64,000 bases of DNA, from contig CAIQDI010000033.1 of NCBI GenBank assembly GCA_903870545.1, forward strand, positions 62,001-126,000. The letters are read 5' to 3'. The position numbers and the translations under genes were made by a program. The DNA is from an uncultured Pseudomonadota bacterium (GTDB lineage Bacteria; Pseudomonadota; Gammaproteobacteria; Methylococcales; Methylomonadaceae). The notes under the pieces were generated by a model that was not told the origin of the DNA, made no database searches, and saw only the letters and a program-made list of their open reading frames with translations. Positions within the stretch are counted from its first letter, which is position 1; every line of letters starts with the position of its first letter. Below, in pieces: positions 12,173-17,880 of the stretch.

Positions 12173-13186
12173 TTAGGCTTCTAAAATAGCCAAACGATCC
12201 GCTAACAAGGTTTCTAGCACCACAAGAGCTTTCGCAAAACCGTCGATGCCTTCAGCTAATTTGTCTTTAGCCATACGATTTTCTTCGTGCATTTTGTCAA
12301 AGGTCGCTTTATCAACACTGATTTTTTCAATTGCGGAAGTTGCCGCATTTTCAGGGGATAATTTGCGAATTAACGTAGCTTCCGTTGTGTGTGATTCATC
12401 AAGCAATGCAACTTCATCAAGTTCAGTCAGCAATGAAGGTGAAATTGTTAATAAATCACAACCTGCTAACTCGATAATTTCACCAAGATTACGGAAACTT
12501 GCGCCCATTACTTCGGTGTTATAGCCGAATTTTTTGTAATAGTTATAAATTTCAGTGACCGATAAAACACCTGGATCTTCAGCGGGCGCGTAATCTTCGA
12601 TGCCAGTATCTTTTTTGTACCAGTCCAAAATACGACCCACGAAAGGTGAAATCAACGTGATCCCATTTTCAGCGCAAGCAATCGCTTGGTGCAAACCGAA
12701 TAACAACGTTAAATTACAATGAATACCTTCTTTTTCTAAAACAGCGGCCGCTTGAATACCTTCCCACGTTGCCGCAATTTTGATTAAAACACGTTTGCGA
12801 TCAATGCCAGCCGCTTCGTATTGTGCAATCAATTCACGACCTTTGGTCACAGACGCTTCGGTATCAAACGATAAACGTGCATCCACTTCCGTTGAAACGC
12901 GACCTGGAATGATTTTCAAAATTTGCAAACCGAATGAAACCGCTAAACGGTCAAATGCCAAAGTAACAACTTGCGCTGCATCGGCTGCTGCACCTAACGT
13001 TGCACGCGCACCATTCAACGTATCATCAACGATACTTTGATATTGTGGCATCTGTGCTGCTGCGGTGATTAACGACGGGTTTGTCGTTGCATCACGCGGC
13101 GTGAATTTTTCAATTGCGCCAATGTCGCCAGTATCAGCAACCACTACGGTGTATTGTTTTAATTGTTCGAGTAAAGATTGGCTCAT
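12173..13186 (-). CDS. tal: Transaldolase
   Basis: Transaldolase moves a dihydroxyacetone unit between sugar phosphates. In the RuMP cycle it helps regenerate ribulose 5-phosphate, the formaldehyde acceptor. The 337-residue protein has family motifs DATTNPSLI (about 32-40), Schiff-base lysine K136 in [12 protein letters not shown], and [12 protein letters not shown]. Its length is slightly above the 316-320 typical of TalB; the extra residues are at the C-terminus. It is the last gene of the minus-strand tkt-repeat proteins-tal run, starting 31 bp after the VxxYL-repeat gene and ending at the bidirectional terminator. Confidence 0.96.
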
Positions 13187-13217: not shown

Positions 13218-13832
13218 TTAGCGTTGGGCTTTCAGATATTTCTCAACGCCTGTCAGCGCAACATCGTTCACAATCGCTTCAACAACGGCAGCAACTTCTT
13301 CTTTCGTTTGCGTTGCCGCACTTGAAATATTTTTTTGCGCTAAATACTTGCTGACGCGGCTTGTTTTTGTTTCTGGAAGATTTTGCAAATAGCTTTCAAC
13401 GCGCGTTGGCTTCGCTTTAGGTGGTGCATTGCGCTCTGCAATCGCTTTTTGCAACAGATACTTCGACACTTTGCTTGCAGGGGTTTTGTCTTGATTGGCT
13501 AAATACTTTTCTACGCCCGTTCTAACAATCGGTGCGCTATCTTTATTGTTATTTAAATACTTCGCCACACCGCTCAAGACGACAACAGGTTTGTTTTTTT
13601 CAGCAATGGCTTGACGTGCTAAATACTTCGCTACGCTGCTGGGTTGATTTTGCTCTTGAGATTTTAGATATTTCGCCACACCGCTTAACGTAATGGATGG
13701 CTGTTCCTCTAAATAACGACTTACACCTGTGCTACCGGCAGACGAATTCGACTCGGAAACAATCGCGCTGCGTACTGTCGTGCTGTAAGCGTCTTCCGAT
13801 GTTTTACCAAAAAGACTTGAGAAAAAGCCCAT
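13218..13832 (-). CDS. Soluble protein with nine VxxYL repeats (unknown family)
   Basis: I do not recognise a named family. The 204-residue protein has a short N-terminal stretch (MGFFSSLFGK) and then nine copies of a motif [GSKR]-V-x-x-Y-L. The valines are at about residues 37, 52, 67, 89, 107, 122, 145, 160 and 196, for example GVAKYLKSQ, SVAKYLARQ and GVEKYLANQ. The basic spacing is 15 residues; two longer spacers carry an AIAE[KR]N insert. Linkers are rich in S, T, P, Q, N and K and look flexible. No membrane segment or catalytic motif is seen. The same motif occurs in the tail of the next upstream gene (2 bp away). A multivalent scaffold or docking protein for neighbouring RuMP enzymes or membranes is inference only. 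Confidence 0.85.
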   Translation of the reverse strand: MGFFSSLFGKTSEDAYSTTVRSAIVSESNSSAGSTGVSRYLEEQPSITLSGVAKYLKSQEQNQPSSVAKYLARQAIAEKNKPVVVLSGVAKYLNNNKDSAPIVRTGVEKYLANQDKTPASKVSKYLLQKAIAERNAPPKAKPTRVESYLQNLPETKTSRVSKYLAQKNISSAATQTKEEVAAVVEAIVNDVALTGVEKYLKAQR

Positions 13833-13834
13833 AA

Positions 13835-14488
13835 CTACCCCCGATTCGCGTCGTTTTGAGTAGCGGTTGCTTTTTGAGCTATGTTTTGTTTAGCAATATA
13901 ACGTGCAACATTAGTTGGCTTACCAGCACGTTCCAAATATTTTGTCACACCAGAAATTTTAGGAATACGCGCGTTTAAATAACGTGTTACACCCGTTTCT
14001 TTCGGAGCATCTGGTTCGTTTGAAACGTTGTTTCCACCAAACACGCCAGCAAATTTAGGACATCTTGACGCTGCAAAACCCACTGCCGCTGCGGCTAACA
14101 AACCTAAAATTAACAAGTTAGAGTTGTCGCCTTCTTTTTCAGCTTTCGCAATAGCCGCTTCTTCCATAATGACTGCGCCAGCACTGCTAGTGTATTGGGA
14201 AATAGGAGCTGATTTGCTTGGTTTGTAGTTATCGTCACTAAACAAAACTTTAGGTTCAAAATCTGCTGCTGGATATTTTGCATCTTGTACCACAGGTGCT
14301 GCTACAGCAGGAGCAGCAGCAACAGATTTTGCCGCTGGAGCAGGCACAGCCGTTGATTTAACAGACTCATCTTGATACAGCACTTTGGGTTCAAAATCAG
14401 CCGCTGGATATTGACCCGCCAATGCAGCAAGTGGACTTGCCACTAACAATGCGATGATAGCACCTTGAAGTAAATTATTTTTTTTCAC
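13835..14488 (-). CDS. Membrane protein with PAADFEPKV duplication and VxxYL tail
   Basis: Unknown family. The start is placed at GTG 14488, with AGGTG six bases upstream, giving 217 residues. The ORF-track GTG at 14530 lies inside a hairpin and would bury the signal peptide. Order of parts: signal peptide (KKNNLLQGAIIALLVASPLAALA, 2-24); an Ala/Pro-rich segment bracketed by near-identical repeats PAADFEPKVLYQDE (28-41) and PAADFEPKVLFSDD (73-86); a membrane helix (NLLILGLLAAAAVGFAAS, about 124-141); and a tail with GVTRYL, GVTKYL and NVARYI. The repeats would be periplasmic and the VxxYL tail cytoplasmic. It is paired with the soluble VxxYL protein, which it could anchor to the membrane (inference). 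Confidence 0.8.
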   Translation of the reverse strand: MKKNNLLQGAIIALLVASPLAALAGQYPAADFEPKVLYQDESVKSTAVPAPAAKSVAAAPAVAAPVVQDAKYPAADFEPKVLFSDDNYKPSKSAPISQYTSSAGAVIMEEAAIAKAEKEGDNSNLLILGLLAAAAVGFAASRCPKFAGVFGGNNVSNEPDAPKETGVTRYLNARIPKISGVTKYLERAGKPTNVARYIAKQNIAQKATATQNDANRG

Positions 14489-14518: not shown

Positions 14519-14546
14519 AAAACCTCGCACGCCAAAACGTACGAGG
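14519..14546 (-). terminator. Hairpin with short U-run after tkt
   Basis: On the minus strand CCTCGTACG pairs with CGTGCGAGG (9 bp, one G-U) across a six-base loop and is followed by TTTT. It starts 22 bp after the tkt stop. It may be a leaky terminator or an mRNA-stabilising element that sets the level of the VxxYL genes relative to tkt. Confidence 0.5.
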
Positions 14547-14568: not shown

Positions 14569-16554
14569 TTAAAGCACCGCTTTAACGTGTTTGACGACGT
14601 TTTCAGACGTAAAACCGAAGTGTTCAAATAACACGTTGCCAGGCGCAGATTCGCCGAATGTATCAATACCAACGACGCTACCTTCTAAACCAACATATTT
14701 GCGCCAAAAATCAGTGATGCCCGCTTCAATAGCGACACGTTTGACTTTCGGTAATAAAATGCTGTCTTTGTAGGCTTGATCTTGACGATCAAAAACATTG
14801 GTGGATGGCATAGAAACGACGCGAGCATGAATACCTTCTGCCGCTAAAGCCGCTTGAGATTTCATCGCTAATGTCACTTCAGAACCAGTTGCAATCAAAA
14901 TTACGGCAACATCGCCGGCGGCTTCAGAAATAACGTAAGCACCTTTACGCATTGCCGCAATTTGCGCGTCATCGTGTGCAATGGCTGGAATCGCTTGACG
15001 ACTTAGCACCAAACTAGTTGGTCCCGTTTTGCGTTCTACCGCATAAACCCACGCCACGGCAGTTTCAGTCGAATCCGCTGGTCGCCACACATCCATATTT
15101 GGAATGTAACGCAACGCTGACGTATTTTCGATAGGCTGATGCGTTGGACCATCTTCACCTTGACCGATTGAATCGTGCGTTAAGACAGCAATGGTTTGAA
15201 TTTTCATCAATGCTGCCATACGCAACGCGCTTTTCGCATAATCGGAGAACATGTGGAATGTGCCGCCGAATGGCAATAAACCGCCGTGCAACGCCATACC
15301 GTTCATGATGGCGAACATACCAAATTCGCGTACACCGTAAGAAATGTAATTGCCGACTGATTTGCCGCTAACGTGTTTGAAACTGGCACAACTGGTTAAG
15401 TTTGAACCGGTTAAATCCGCAGAACCACCTAAAAATTCAGGCAAAATTTCCGCCAATCCCGCAATCGCTTTTTGCGATGCTTGACGTGACGCTAAGTTTT
15501 CGCCTTTTTCGTTGGTGGCTTTGATGAATGCGTCAGTAACTGTTTTCCAGTTTGCGGGTAAATCACCGGCTGTACGGCGTGTGAATTCAGCCGCTAATTC
15601 AGGAAATTCTGCCGCATAAGCTGCAAATTTAGCATCCCAATCAGATTCGATTGTTGCTCCTTTCGCTTTCGCATCCCAACCTGCATAAACATTTTCTGGA
15701 ATCACAAATGGCGCGTGCGTCCAACCTAATGCTTCGCGTGTCAACGCAACTTCTGCGTCGCCTAATGCTGCGCCGTGACAATCGTGACTGCCACTTTTGT
15801 TTGGTGAACCAAAACCAATAATCGTTTTACAGCAAATCATGGATGGTTTATCGGTGACTGCTTTAGCCGCTGTGATGGCGGCATTGATTTCGTCAGCGTT
15901 ATGACCATCAACAGATTGAACGTGCCAGCCGTAGGCTTCAAAACGTTTTACGGTGTCGTCGGTGTACCAGCCATCAATATGACCGTCGATTGAAATGTTG
16001 TTATCGTCCCAGAACGCAACTAATTTACCTAAACCCCATGTTCCCGCTAACGCACATGCTTCGTGTGATACGCCTTCCATCAAACAACCATCACCTAAGA
16101 AAACATAGGTGTGATGATCAATGATTTCGTGACCCGGTTTGTTGAATTGGTCGGCTAATAATTTCTCTGCCATTGCAAAACCAACGCCGTTGGTGATGCC
16201 TTGTCCGAGTGGCCCAGTTGTAGTTTCAACGCCTGGTGCGTAGCCGTATTCGGGATGACCTGGACATTTTGAATGCAATTGACGGAATGATGACAATTCT
16301 TTCATCGGCAAATCGTAGCCAGAAAGATGCAATAACGAATAAATCAGCATTGAACCATGGCCATTCGATAATACAAAACGGTCGCGATCTGCAAAATTTG
16401 GATTGGTTGGATTGTGTTTTAAATGGTTATTCCACAACACTTCGGCGATGTCCGCCATACCCATTGGTGCGCCGGGATGTCCTGAATTTGCCTTTTGAAC
16501 TGCATCCATGCTTAACGCGCGTATGGCGTTCGCTAATTCTCTACGCGATGTCAT
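14569..16554 (-). CDS. tkt: Transketolase
   Basis: Transketolase is a thiamine-diphosphate enzyme that transfers two-carbon units. Here it serves the rearrangement part of the RuMP cycle. The 661-residue protein has the substrate/ThDP residues of the family: [11 protein letters not shown] near 24-34, the ThDP motif GDGCLMEG (154-161) continuing to the asparagine in [10 protein letters not shown], the pyrimidine domain with [17 protein letters not shown], and a C-terminal domain. Length is standard. It follows hps-phi on the same strand after a 137-bp spacer that holds two hairpins, and precedes the VxxYL pair and tal. Confidence 0.97.
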
Positions 16555-16691: not shown

Positions 16692-17225
16692 TTATTCTAA
16701 ATTGGCATGTCTGGAACGCATGATTTCTTCTGGAATACCTTTCTCATGAATAATATGGGAAATAGTAGATTCCAAAAAGACTAATGTTGACAGCTCAAAA
16801 ACGGTTCCCATTGGCATTCCAACGACTTTGCCGTACAACTCAGATTGTCCGATTTGGAACACACCGTCTGCCATATCGCCAATTGTCGATTTTGATTGGG
16901 CAGAAATCAACATGATTTTTGCACCAATTTTTTTCGCACTTTTAGTGAAAGCAACCAGCTGTTCAGTTTCACCCGAACCTGAGATGATAATTAACAAATC
17001 GCCAGCTTGAATGCTTGGAGTCACAATCTCGCCGACAACATTGACGTTGTAACCACCATGCACCAACCGCATTGCAAAGAAATTACCGACCAGTTTTGAA
17101 CGACCGGCACCCGCAATAAAAATGCGTGATGCCGCGTCGAGCATAGCGGTTAGTTTTTCATCGTAAGATTCTTCAGTCGCTTCAAGAATACTGGTAATTT
17201 TATCTAAGATAAGTTGTTGGTGCAT
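16692..17225 (-). CDS. hxlB: 6-phospho-3-hexuloisomerase
   Basis: PHI converts D-arabino-3-hexulose 6-phosphate to fructose 6-phosphate, the second step of formaldehyde fixation. The 177-residue protein is a single SIS sugar-isomerase domain. It has FIAGAGRSKLVGNFFAMRL (about 36-54), the phosphate-binding ISGSGETEQL (81-90) and the C-terminal MPMGTVFELSTLVFLE helix carrying the likely catalytic glutamate. It starts 13 bp after the hps stop, so hps-phi form one transcription unit. The fused hps-phi form found in some methylotrophs is not present here. Confidence 0.95.
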   Translation of the reverse strand: MHQQLILDKITSILEATEESYDEKLTAMLDAASRIFIAGAGRSKLVGNFFAMRLVHGGYNVNVVGEIVTPSIQAGDLLIIISGSGETEQLVAFTKSAKKIGAKIMLISAQSKSTIGDMADGVFQIGQSELYGKVVGMPMGTVFELSTLVFLESTISHIIHEKGIPEEIMRSRHANLE

Positions 17226-17238
17226 AAGGTTTCCTTAA

Positions 17239-17880
17239 TTAAACAGCGTCAACTAATTCACGAATTTCACGCGCTGATTCAGCAGGTGATGCGGCACCGT
17301 AGATGGCTGCGCCAACTACAATAATGTTTGCGCCTGCACGAACTACGTCTTGAACAGTTTTAGCGTTAATACCGCCAGCAACTGAAATACGAACACCTAA
17401 GTTCAAACCAGCAATCAAGTTCAAATCAGCAAACGGTGTATCGCCAGCTGCTTGTGCATCTAAGCCTGTGTGAATACCGATAACTTGTGCGCCAGCGGCT
17501 ACCGTTGCACGAGCGCAAGCTGCTTTGTCATCAACATTGATTAAATCAATTTGTGCTTCAGCTGAGTGAGCGTTCGCTGCTTTGATAACGCCTTTGCAAG
17601 TCGCTAAACCAGAAACACCTAATACAGTACAAATGTCCGCGCCAGCTGCGTAGAAAGGAGTCGCTTCGTATTCGCCAGCGTCCATTGTTTTTAAATCAAC
17701 TAATAACAATTTGTCTGGGAATTCTGCACGTAACGCTGTTACTAAGTTTACGCCGTTGTGTTTGATACAAGGTGTACCAATTTCGAAAATATCAACGAAT
17801 GGCGCAACTTGTTTTGCTAATGAAATCGTTGCGTCGAAATCTAAAGAATCTAATGCCATTTGAATCAATGGTTTTGCCAT
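17239..17880 (-). CDS. hxlA: 3-hexulose-6-phosphate synthase
   Basis: HPS condenses formaldehyde with ribulose 5-phosphate to give hexulose 6-phosphate, the entry step of the RuMP pathway. The 213-residue TIM-barrel protein of the OMP-decarboxylase suprafamily carries the catalytic DLKTMD (D62, K64, D67), EIGTPCIKHNG for substrate binding and the phosphate site VAGGINAKT plus VVGAAIYGA. Methionine start MAKPLIQMALD is preceded by GGAG nine bases upstream. Its presence is the best marker that the organism uses C1 compounds. It is first in hps-phi and has its own strong -35 element. Confidence 0.97.
   Translation of the reverse strand: MAKPLIQMALDSLDFDATISLAKQVAPFVDIFEIGTPCIKHNGVNLVTALRAEFPDKLLLVDLKTMDAGEYEATPFYAAGADICTVLGVSGLATCKGVIKAANAHSAEAQIDLINVDDKAACARATVAAGAQVIGIHTGLDAQAAGDTPFADLNLIAGLNLGVRISVAGGINAKTVQDVVRAGANIIVVGAAIYGAASPAESAREIRELVDAV

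Follow-up and report, generated by a model that had tools for sequence, protein, structure and literature searches.

Two adjacent genes in the window (the whole 64,000-nucleotide stretch of DNA analysed here) encode proteins, A and B, that carry repeated copies of the same short motif, VxxY[LI], and lie within a cassette of RuMP genes, which serve methane- and methanol-using bacteria to turn formaldehyde into sugar. In our estimate, there is about an even chance that A and B act as membrane-attached scaffolds with multiple docking sites, bringing RuMP enzymes (most likely Hps) together through putative binding of the motif. Formaldehyde is toxic and, in methylotrophs that use methanol dehydrogenase, it is made outside the cytoplasm; capturing it fast enough is a practical question for both methane removal and synthetic methylotrophy. 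With a conserved and previously undescribed pair in the core RuMP cassette that type I methanotrophs carry, a natural RuMP assembly becomes testable by knockout and localisation in a tractable strain; if the motif binds Hps, it would also provide a ready-made engineering tag.

Two motif-bearing proteins in the RuMP cassette

The cassette lies on the minus strand in the order hps, phi, tkt, A, B, tal. The genes for 3-hexulose-6-phosphate synthase (hps, 17239..17880; TIGR03128, 238.8 bits), whose product is our preferred client, 6-phospho-3-hexuloisomerase (phi, 16692..17225; named from sequence and position) and transketolase (tkt, 14569..16554; named from sequence) are followed by those for A (13835..14488; 217 aa, with a GTG start at 14488), B (13218..13832; 204 aa) and transaldolase (tal, 12173..13186; named from sequence). 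Counted from these coordinates, the successive intergenic gaps are 13, 137, 80, 2 and 31 bases. The first-pass annotation had described the pair as inserted between tkt and tal on one strand, downstream of hps-phi, and the reading frames fall exactly where it placed them. A terminator-like hairpin of 10 pairs (14523..14546, minus strand), identified by consensus match only, occupies the interval between tkt and A, suggesting that expression of A-B-tal may be partly uncoupled from that of hps-phi-tkt. The window genome has a single A and a single B.

B has a pI of 9.7, lacks tryptophan and cysteine, and contains nine V-x-x-Y-L motifs, the valines being preceded by G, G, S, G, G, K, R, R and G, as expected from the [GSKR]-V-x-x-Y-L pattern reported initially. 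All are encoded on the minus strand: GVSRYL (13710..13727), GVAKYL (13665..13682), SVAKYL (13620..13637), GVAKYL (13554..13571), GVEKYL (13500..13517), KVSKYL (13455..13472), RVESYL (13386..13403), RVSKYL (13341..13358) and, at the C-terminal end, GVEKYL (13233..13250). The distances from valine to valine are 15, 15, 22, 18, 15, 23, 15 and 36 residues; thus, the 15-residue base spacing proposed earlier is the commonest step (4 of 8) but not the sole one. When B was shuffled 200,000 times, the motif count never exceeded three. Together with the conservation described below, this ruled out a chance or low-complexity origin of the repeats.

We used AlphaFold, with 22 aligned sequences, to predict the structure of B. 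The model (mean pLDDT 63.9, pTM 0.20) contains ten helices, nine of which start at the nine motifs, motif 1 marking the start of helix 36-42; a pTM of 0.20 implies no global fold. The predicted anatomy of B is therefore that of a flexible chain bearing short docking helices. Near its N terminus, in a region of low model confidence, B carries a hydrophobic or amphipathic stretch, GFFSSLFGK (13803..13829, minus strand), with counterparts in Methylophaga-like B (GFFASICGFFKGLFSS) and in other methanotroph B (GLFFPAVAGLFFFMKR). The N terminus is thus short and hydrophobic in both lineages, and its composition points to possible membrane attachment.

A opens with a signal-peptide-like segment, continues with two YPAADFEPKVL[YF] repeats and a single hydrophobic helix, and ends in a three-motif tail, all encoded on the minus strand. 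By inspection, residues ~1-24 form a predicted Sec signal peptide (14417..14488), which is followed by repeat 1, YPAADFEPKVLYQD (14369..14410), repeat 2, YPAADFEPKVLFSD (14234..14275), and a transmembrane helix at residues 123-142 (14063..14122), also helical in the AlphaFold model. We infer that the repeats would be periplasmic and the tail, beyond a single membrane crossing, cytoplasmic. The tail motifs GVTRYL (13976..13993), GVTKYL (13934..13951) and NVARYI (13895..13912), which the first-pass annotation had listed, are present in the sequence and coincide with predicted helices; three motifs were attained in just 4 of 200,000 shuffles of A. The model of A, with helices at its three motifs and at the membrane segment, has a mean pLDDT of 53.7, below that of B. 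The [AN]IA[EQ][KR] stretch said to be common to both proteins also recurs, as SVAKYLARQAIAEK and KVSKYLLQKAIAER in B and as NVARYIAKQNIAQK in A.

Searches of A, B and their relatives against Pfam, NCBIfam and the PDB returned nothing above cut-off, the best subthreshold matches having unrelated names, which agrees with the earlier statement that the pair belongs to no known family. Profiles of CsoS2 were absent from the Pfam and NCBIfam matches of the window's A and B (E ≤ 10) and of their relatives (E ≤ 0.1). The open-access literature, to which our search was confined, yielded no description of the motif, the pair or a natural RuMP scaffold; the word 'metabolon' in a paper on strain 20Z proved to be a company name rather than an assembly.

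Conservation, linkage to hps and phylogenetic range

Among 18 same-genus orthologues of B, the motif is conserved above the linkers: V and Y are 100% conserved at all nine sites (1.00), L averages 90% (0.90) and residues outside the motif 71% (0.71). Across ~1,200 distinct units, the consensus is [ST]-[GS]-V-[AE]-[KR]-Y-[LI]-x-x-Q; Y is conserved at 93-100%, V itself being part of the search pattern. The number of copies ranges from 3 to 22 and linker lengths between motifs are not conserved. Each lineage has its own form, methanotroph A and B favouring A-K-Y-L, and Methylophaga-like B together with a ChpA-like kinase favouring E-R-Y-I. We also considered whether RuMP enzymes or other proteins are themselves tagged with the motif, and a strict scan of ~595,000 ORF residues found no cassette enzyme with it.

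Matches to the pair were found in all 17 sampled congeners and in most other genera of the window genome's family. The order hps-phi-tkt-A-B-tal-fba recurs in many genera, with B ranging from 134 to 544 aa and carrying up to 22 motifs. Other arrangements include hps-phi-B (L034) and B immediately upstream of hps (L225, L227), while M. capsulatus-type Methylococcaceae, including M. capsulatus Texas (L075) and Methylocaldum (L083), yielded A alone, directly upstream of hps. In M. buryatense 5G (L036), two tandem hps-phi-tkt-B cassettes precede hps-phi-tkt-A-tal, and in L224 hps-phi-tkt-B precedes hps-phi-tkt-A-B-tal. In both cases the hps-phi-tkt-B unit is amplified in tandem, the L036 copies being near-identical, and A and tal follow the final copy alone. 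B thus accompanies hps in duplicated cassettes (L034, L036, L224, L227).

For a linkage test, an Hps alignment was scanned against 85,462 species genomes, the best 80 matches giving 79 named loci, all from Methylococcales. Among these best 80 matches, A and/or B was present at 46 of 46 unfused hps loci for which 5.5 kb or more of downstream sequence was available, and at none of the 10 hps-phi fusion loci, bearing out the suggested linkage of the pair to RuMP genes. The genomes with fusion loci are not devoid of the system: A or B was found elsewhere in 18 of the 18 checked. The separate hps-phi fusion genes, of 389-397 aa (L081, L084, L108, L121, L128, L145), were never linked to A or B. Starting instead from loci chosen without using hps, we collected 131 distinct A/B proteins, 119 of which have RuMP genes within 7 kb. 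The remaining 12 lie mostly at contig or fetched-region ends, and the clear exceptions are L040 and L219. The sole enzyme gene common to all arrangements not running off a contig is hps, with linkage to tal nearly as general.

The range of B within the wider class is narrow. Of 321 sampled Gammaproteobacteria, five have hps, and a B profile matched four of these and none of the 316 without it (Fisher 1e-8, a value that phylogenetically represents just two or three independent lineages); the fifth hps genome (G063) has A-type frames beside hps. The repeat is therefore not widespread in non-methylotrophs; a wide distribution there would have told against the original proposal. In a 349-genome sample of the phylum, the window genome was the sole match, and a search of a plasmid collection for signs of plasmid-borne spread returned no match.

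Two of the four B-positive genomes in the class sample appear to belong to a Methylophagaceae-like family. Here B is short (80-204 aa, with 3-8 copies of T[GS]VERYI[RQ]N) and the gene order is hps-B-tal-hps-phi. Of 48 Methylophaga-like genomes with hps, 46 contain short B, compared with none of the nine without hps (Fisher 6e-9), several of these nine being incomplete assemblies. In both hps-positive genomes without B, the hps match is near a contig end or cut, and one Methylophaga-like genome listed as 100% complete (G754) is without hps, B and the kinase motif alike. A Methylophaga-like MAG with 5% contamination (G762) contains a methanotroph-type A-B-tal contig (L184), which is probably stray.

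As a control, we examined a family that looks Methylophilaceae-like from its order tal-hps-phi, in which hps was found in 78 of 80 genomes and B in 0 of 80. This rules out a universal RuMP component and indicates that the system belongs to two RuMP lineages, not to the pathway as such.

Candidate functions of the pair

If A and B are docking scaffolds, each would display several short helical motifs on an otherwise unfolded chain. A would be anchored by its one transmembrane helix, with the motifs toward the cytoplasm and the YPAADF repeats toward the periplasm, and B would probably be held at the membrane by its hydrophobic N-terminal helix. One and the same site on a multimeric RuMP enzyme, of which Hps is the likeliest, would bind every motif helix. 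With many motifs meeting many subunits, the enzyme would become cross-linked and would cluster beneath the inner or intracytoplasmic membrane, at the point of entry of formaldehyde produced in the periplasm. Our preference for Hps as client has two grounds: among the enzyme genes, hps alone is shared by the arrangements seen, and linkage holds where hps is a gene of its own; since tal linkage is nearly as general, the client could instead be Tal or another enzyme. In older biochemistry, the Hps of Methylococcus capsulatus is reported to have been particulate, which we take as a lead rather than as evidence.

A fuller version of this picture, which we hold only tentatively and consider rather doubtful, is a natural membrane-tethered RuMP metabolon in type I methanotrophs and Methylophaga-like bacteria. 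Here A (in methanotrophs) and peripheral B would cross-link Hps, and perhaps Phi, Tkt and Tal, via VxxY[LI], while the YPAADF repeats of A would face the methanol-oxidising periplasm and formaldehyde would be captured while crossing the membrane. If true, a RuMP metabolon would be an example of scaffolded carbon fixation beyond Rubisco-based systems.

In anatomy, A and B may be compared with CsoS2, the carboxysome scaffold, and EPYC1, the pyrenoid linker, which are likewise disordered chains in which a short, conserved helical or linear motif recurs many times; they too are encoded or expressed alongside the enzyme to be gathered and have a species-dependent copy number. A and B differ in showing no sequence relation (hmmscan of B), in belonging to the RuMP pathway rather than to Rubisco, and in being apparently split into transmembrane and soluble partners whose client binding is putative; as no homology was found, we do not file them with either protein. 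By-eye inspection of the cassette neighbours recognised no BMC shell proteins. Mdh-Hps-Phi assemblies engineered for use in synthetic methylotrophy (Price et al. 2016, as cited in PMC8879981) are described there as having a similar aim, that of placing Hps and Phi near the formaldehyde source, although they are artificial and the natural A and B are unrelated to them.

The multivalent-scaffold reading was put forward in the first-pass annotation, and its grounds (the motif common to A and B, the RuMP linkage, the absence of a known family and the anatomy) stand, but not as a property general to RuMP bacteria, since the Methylophilaceae-like family is without the pair. The tethering it suggested needs a similar qualification: Methylophaga-like bacteria have a short B without being methanotrophs, so a role of B specific to the intracytoplasmic membrane is weakened and that membrane cannot be the whole story. 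Also weighing against docking scaffolds are the two B-like proteins away from RuMP genes (L040, L219) and the modest structure confidence (mean pLDDT 63.9 for B and 53.7 for A).

The strongest objection to docking scaffolds comes from ChpA/PilL-like kinases of Methylophaga-like bacteria (L059:1-2549(-), L062:8745-14852(-), L195, L212, L241-L260), whose linkers carry up to seven T[GS]V[ED][RK]Y[IL] repeats. These are the motif of Methylophaga-like B, set in large multidomain proteins of ~1,800-2,050 aa encoded outside the RuMP cassette; the motif itself is thus not exclusive to RuMP proteins, and a RuMP-only receptor leaves the kinase unexplained. Either the kinase linker binds the same receptor as A and B, or the receptor is a general hub. 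In the latter case, the motif would dock on, say, an organiser of the cell pole or membrane that has a helix-binding domain, A and B would place something there, and the kinases would share the dock. The repeats occur in the kinase linker of many Methylophaga-like genomes, and kinase and B of this family have nearly the same form (E at +1, R at +2, I at +4), where methanotroph A and B prefer A, K and L; a form specific to the lineage and common to B and kinase fits one shared receptor per lineage. Within Methylophaga-like genomes, a by-eye check of whether Ser and Gly covary between the motifs of B and those of ChpA revealed no clear pattern. We nevertheless regard a general hub as unlikely, as it leaves unexplained why A and B stay with separate hps and are absent at hps-phi fusions, and why short B is absent from hps-negative Methylophaga-like genomes.

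Other readings concern what the motif helices do rather than what they dock on. They might bind each other or stack, B and the A tail polymerising into a membrane-bound meshwork to which enzymes are recruited by other parts or merely by co-translation. That the motif is identical in A and B, that copy number varies from 3 to 22 without loss of the pattern, and that the chain is highly repetitive and basic would suit such homotypic assembly, but the single-chain model (pTM 0.20) predicts no partner surface and linker lengths are not conserved, making it quite improbable. The genetics would be the same if A and B regulated RuMP enzyme activity instead of clustering the enzymes, whether by CP12-like stoichiometric binding or by formaldehyde-responsive release. 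CP12-like regulators are typically small, unfolded and encoded next to their target, as A and B would be; yet up to 22 motifs and two membrane-linked forms exceed the needs of a simple inhibitor, and the window's B has no cysteine for redox control, so we give regulation a distinctly small probability. Least probable would be generic amphipathic lipid binding, in which the helices coat the cytoplasmic or intracytoplasmic membrane and RuMP linkage is a mere regulatory convenience. Basic, short amphipathic helices with V, Y and L on one face and a hydrophobic N terminus of B are consistent with it, whereas the invariance of V and Y at nine sites in 18 orthologues and the rare replacement of Y over two families are unlike lipid-binding helices, and the tight association with hps also argues against it.

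Other proteins bearing the repeats

L040:8942-9772(+) and L219:304-1038(+) encode the B-like proteins found away from RuMP genes, in which VxxYL repeats are joined to a Cys-rich C-terminal domain (C-x4-GKGTxC...C-x2-H). A match of L040 to 'Diatom pyrenoid component 2' scored 17.7 bits against a cut-off of 70; being subthreshold, it is not evidence.

The repeats in the predicted periplasmic part of A also have counterparts elsewhere. Small secreted methanotroph proteins (L157-L159, L161, L162, L166, L167, L169, L172) contain two to four YPAADFxPKVxY repeats and end in KVIYP. Unlike A, they are ~76-138 aa long, with no transmembrane helix past the signal peptide and no VxxYL tail. Their genes mostly adjoin ABC transporter genes, often tauB/ssuB-like. 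A therefore joins a module shared with these proteins to a VxxYL tail.
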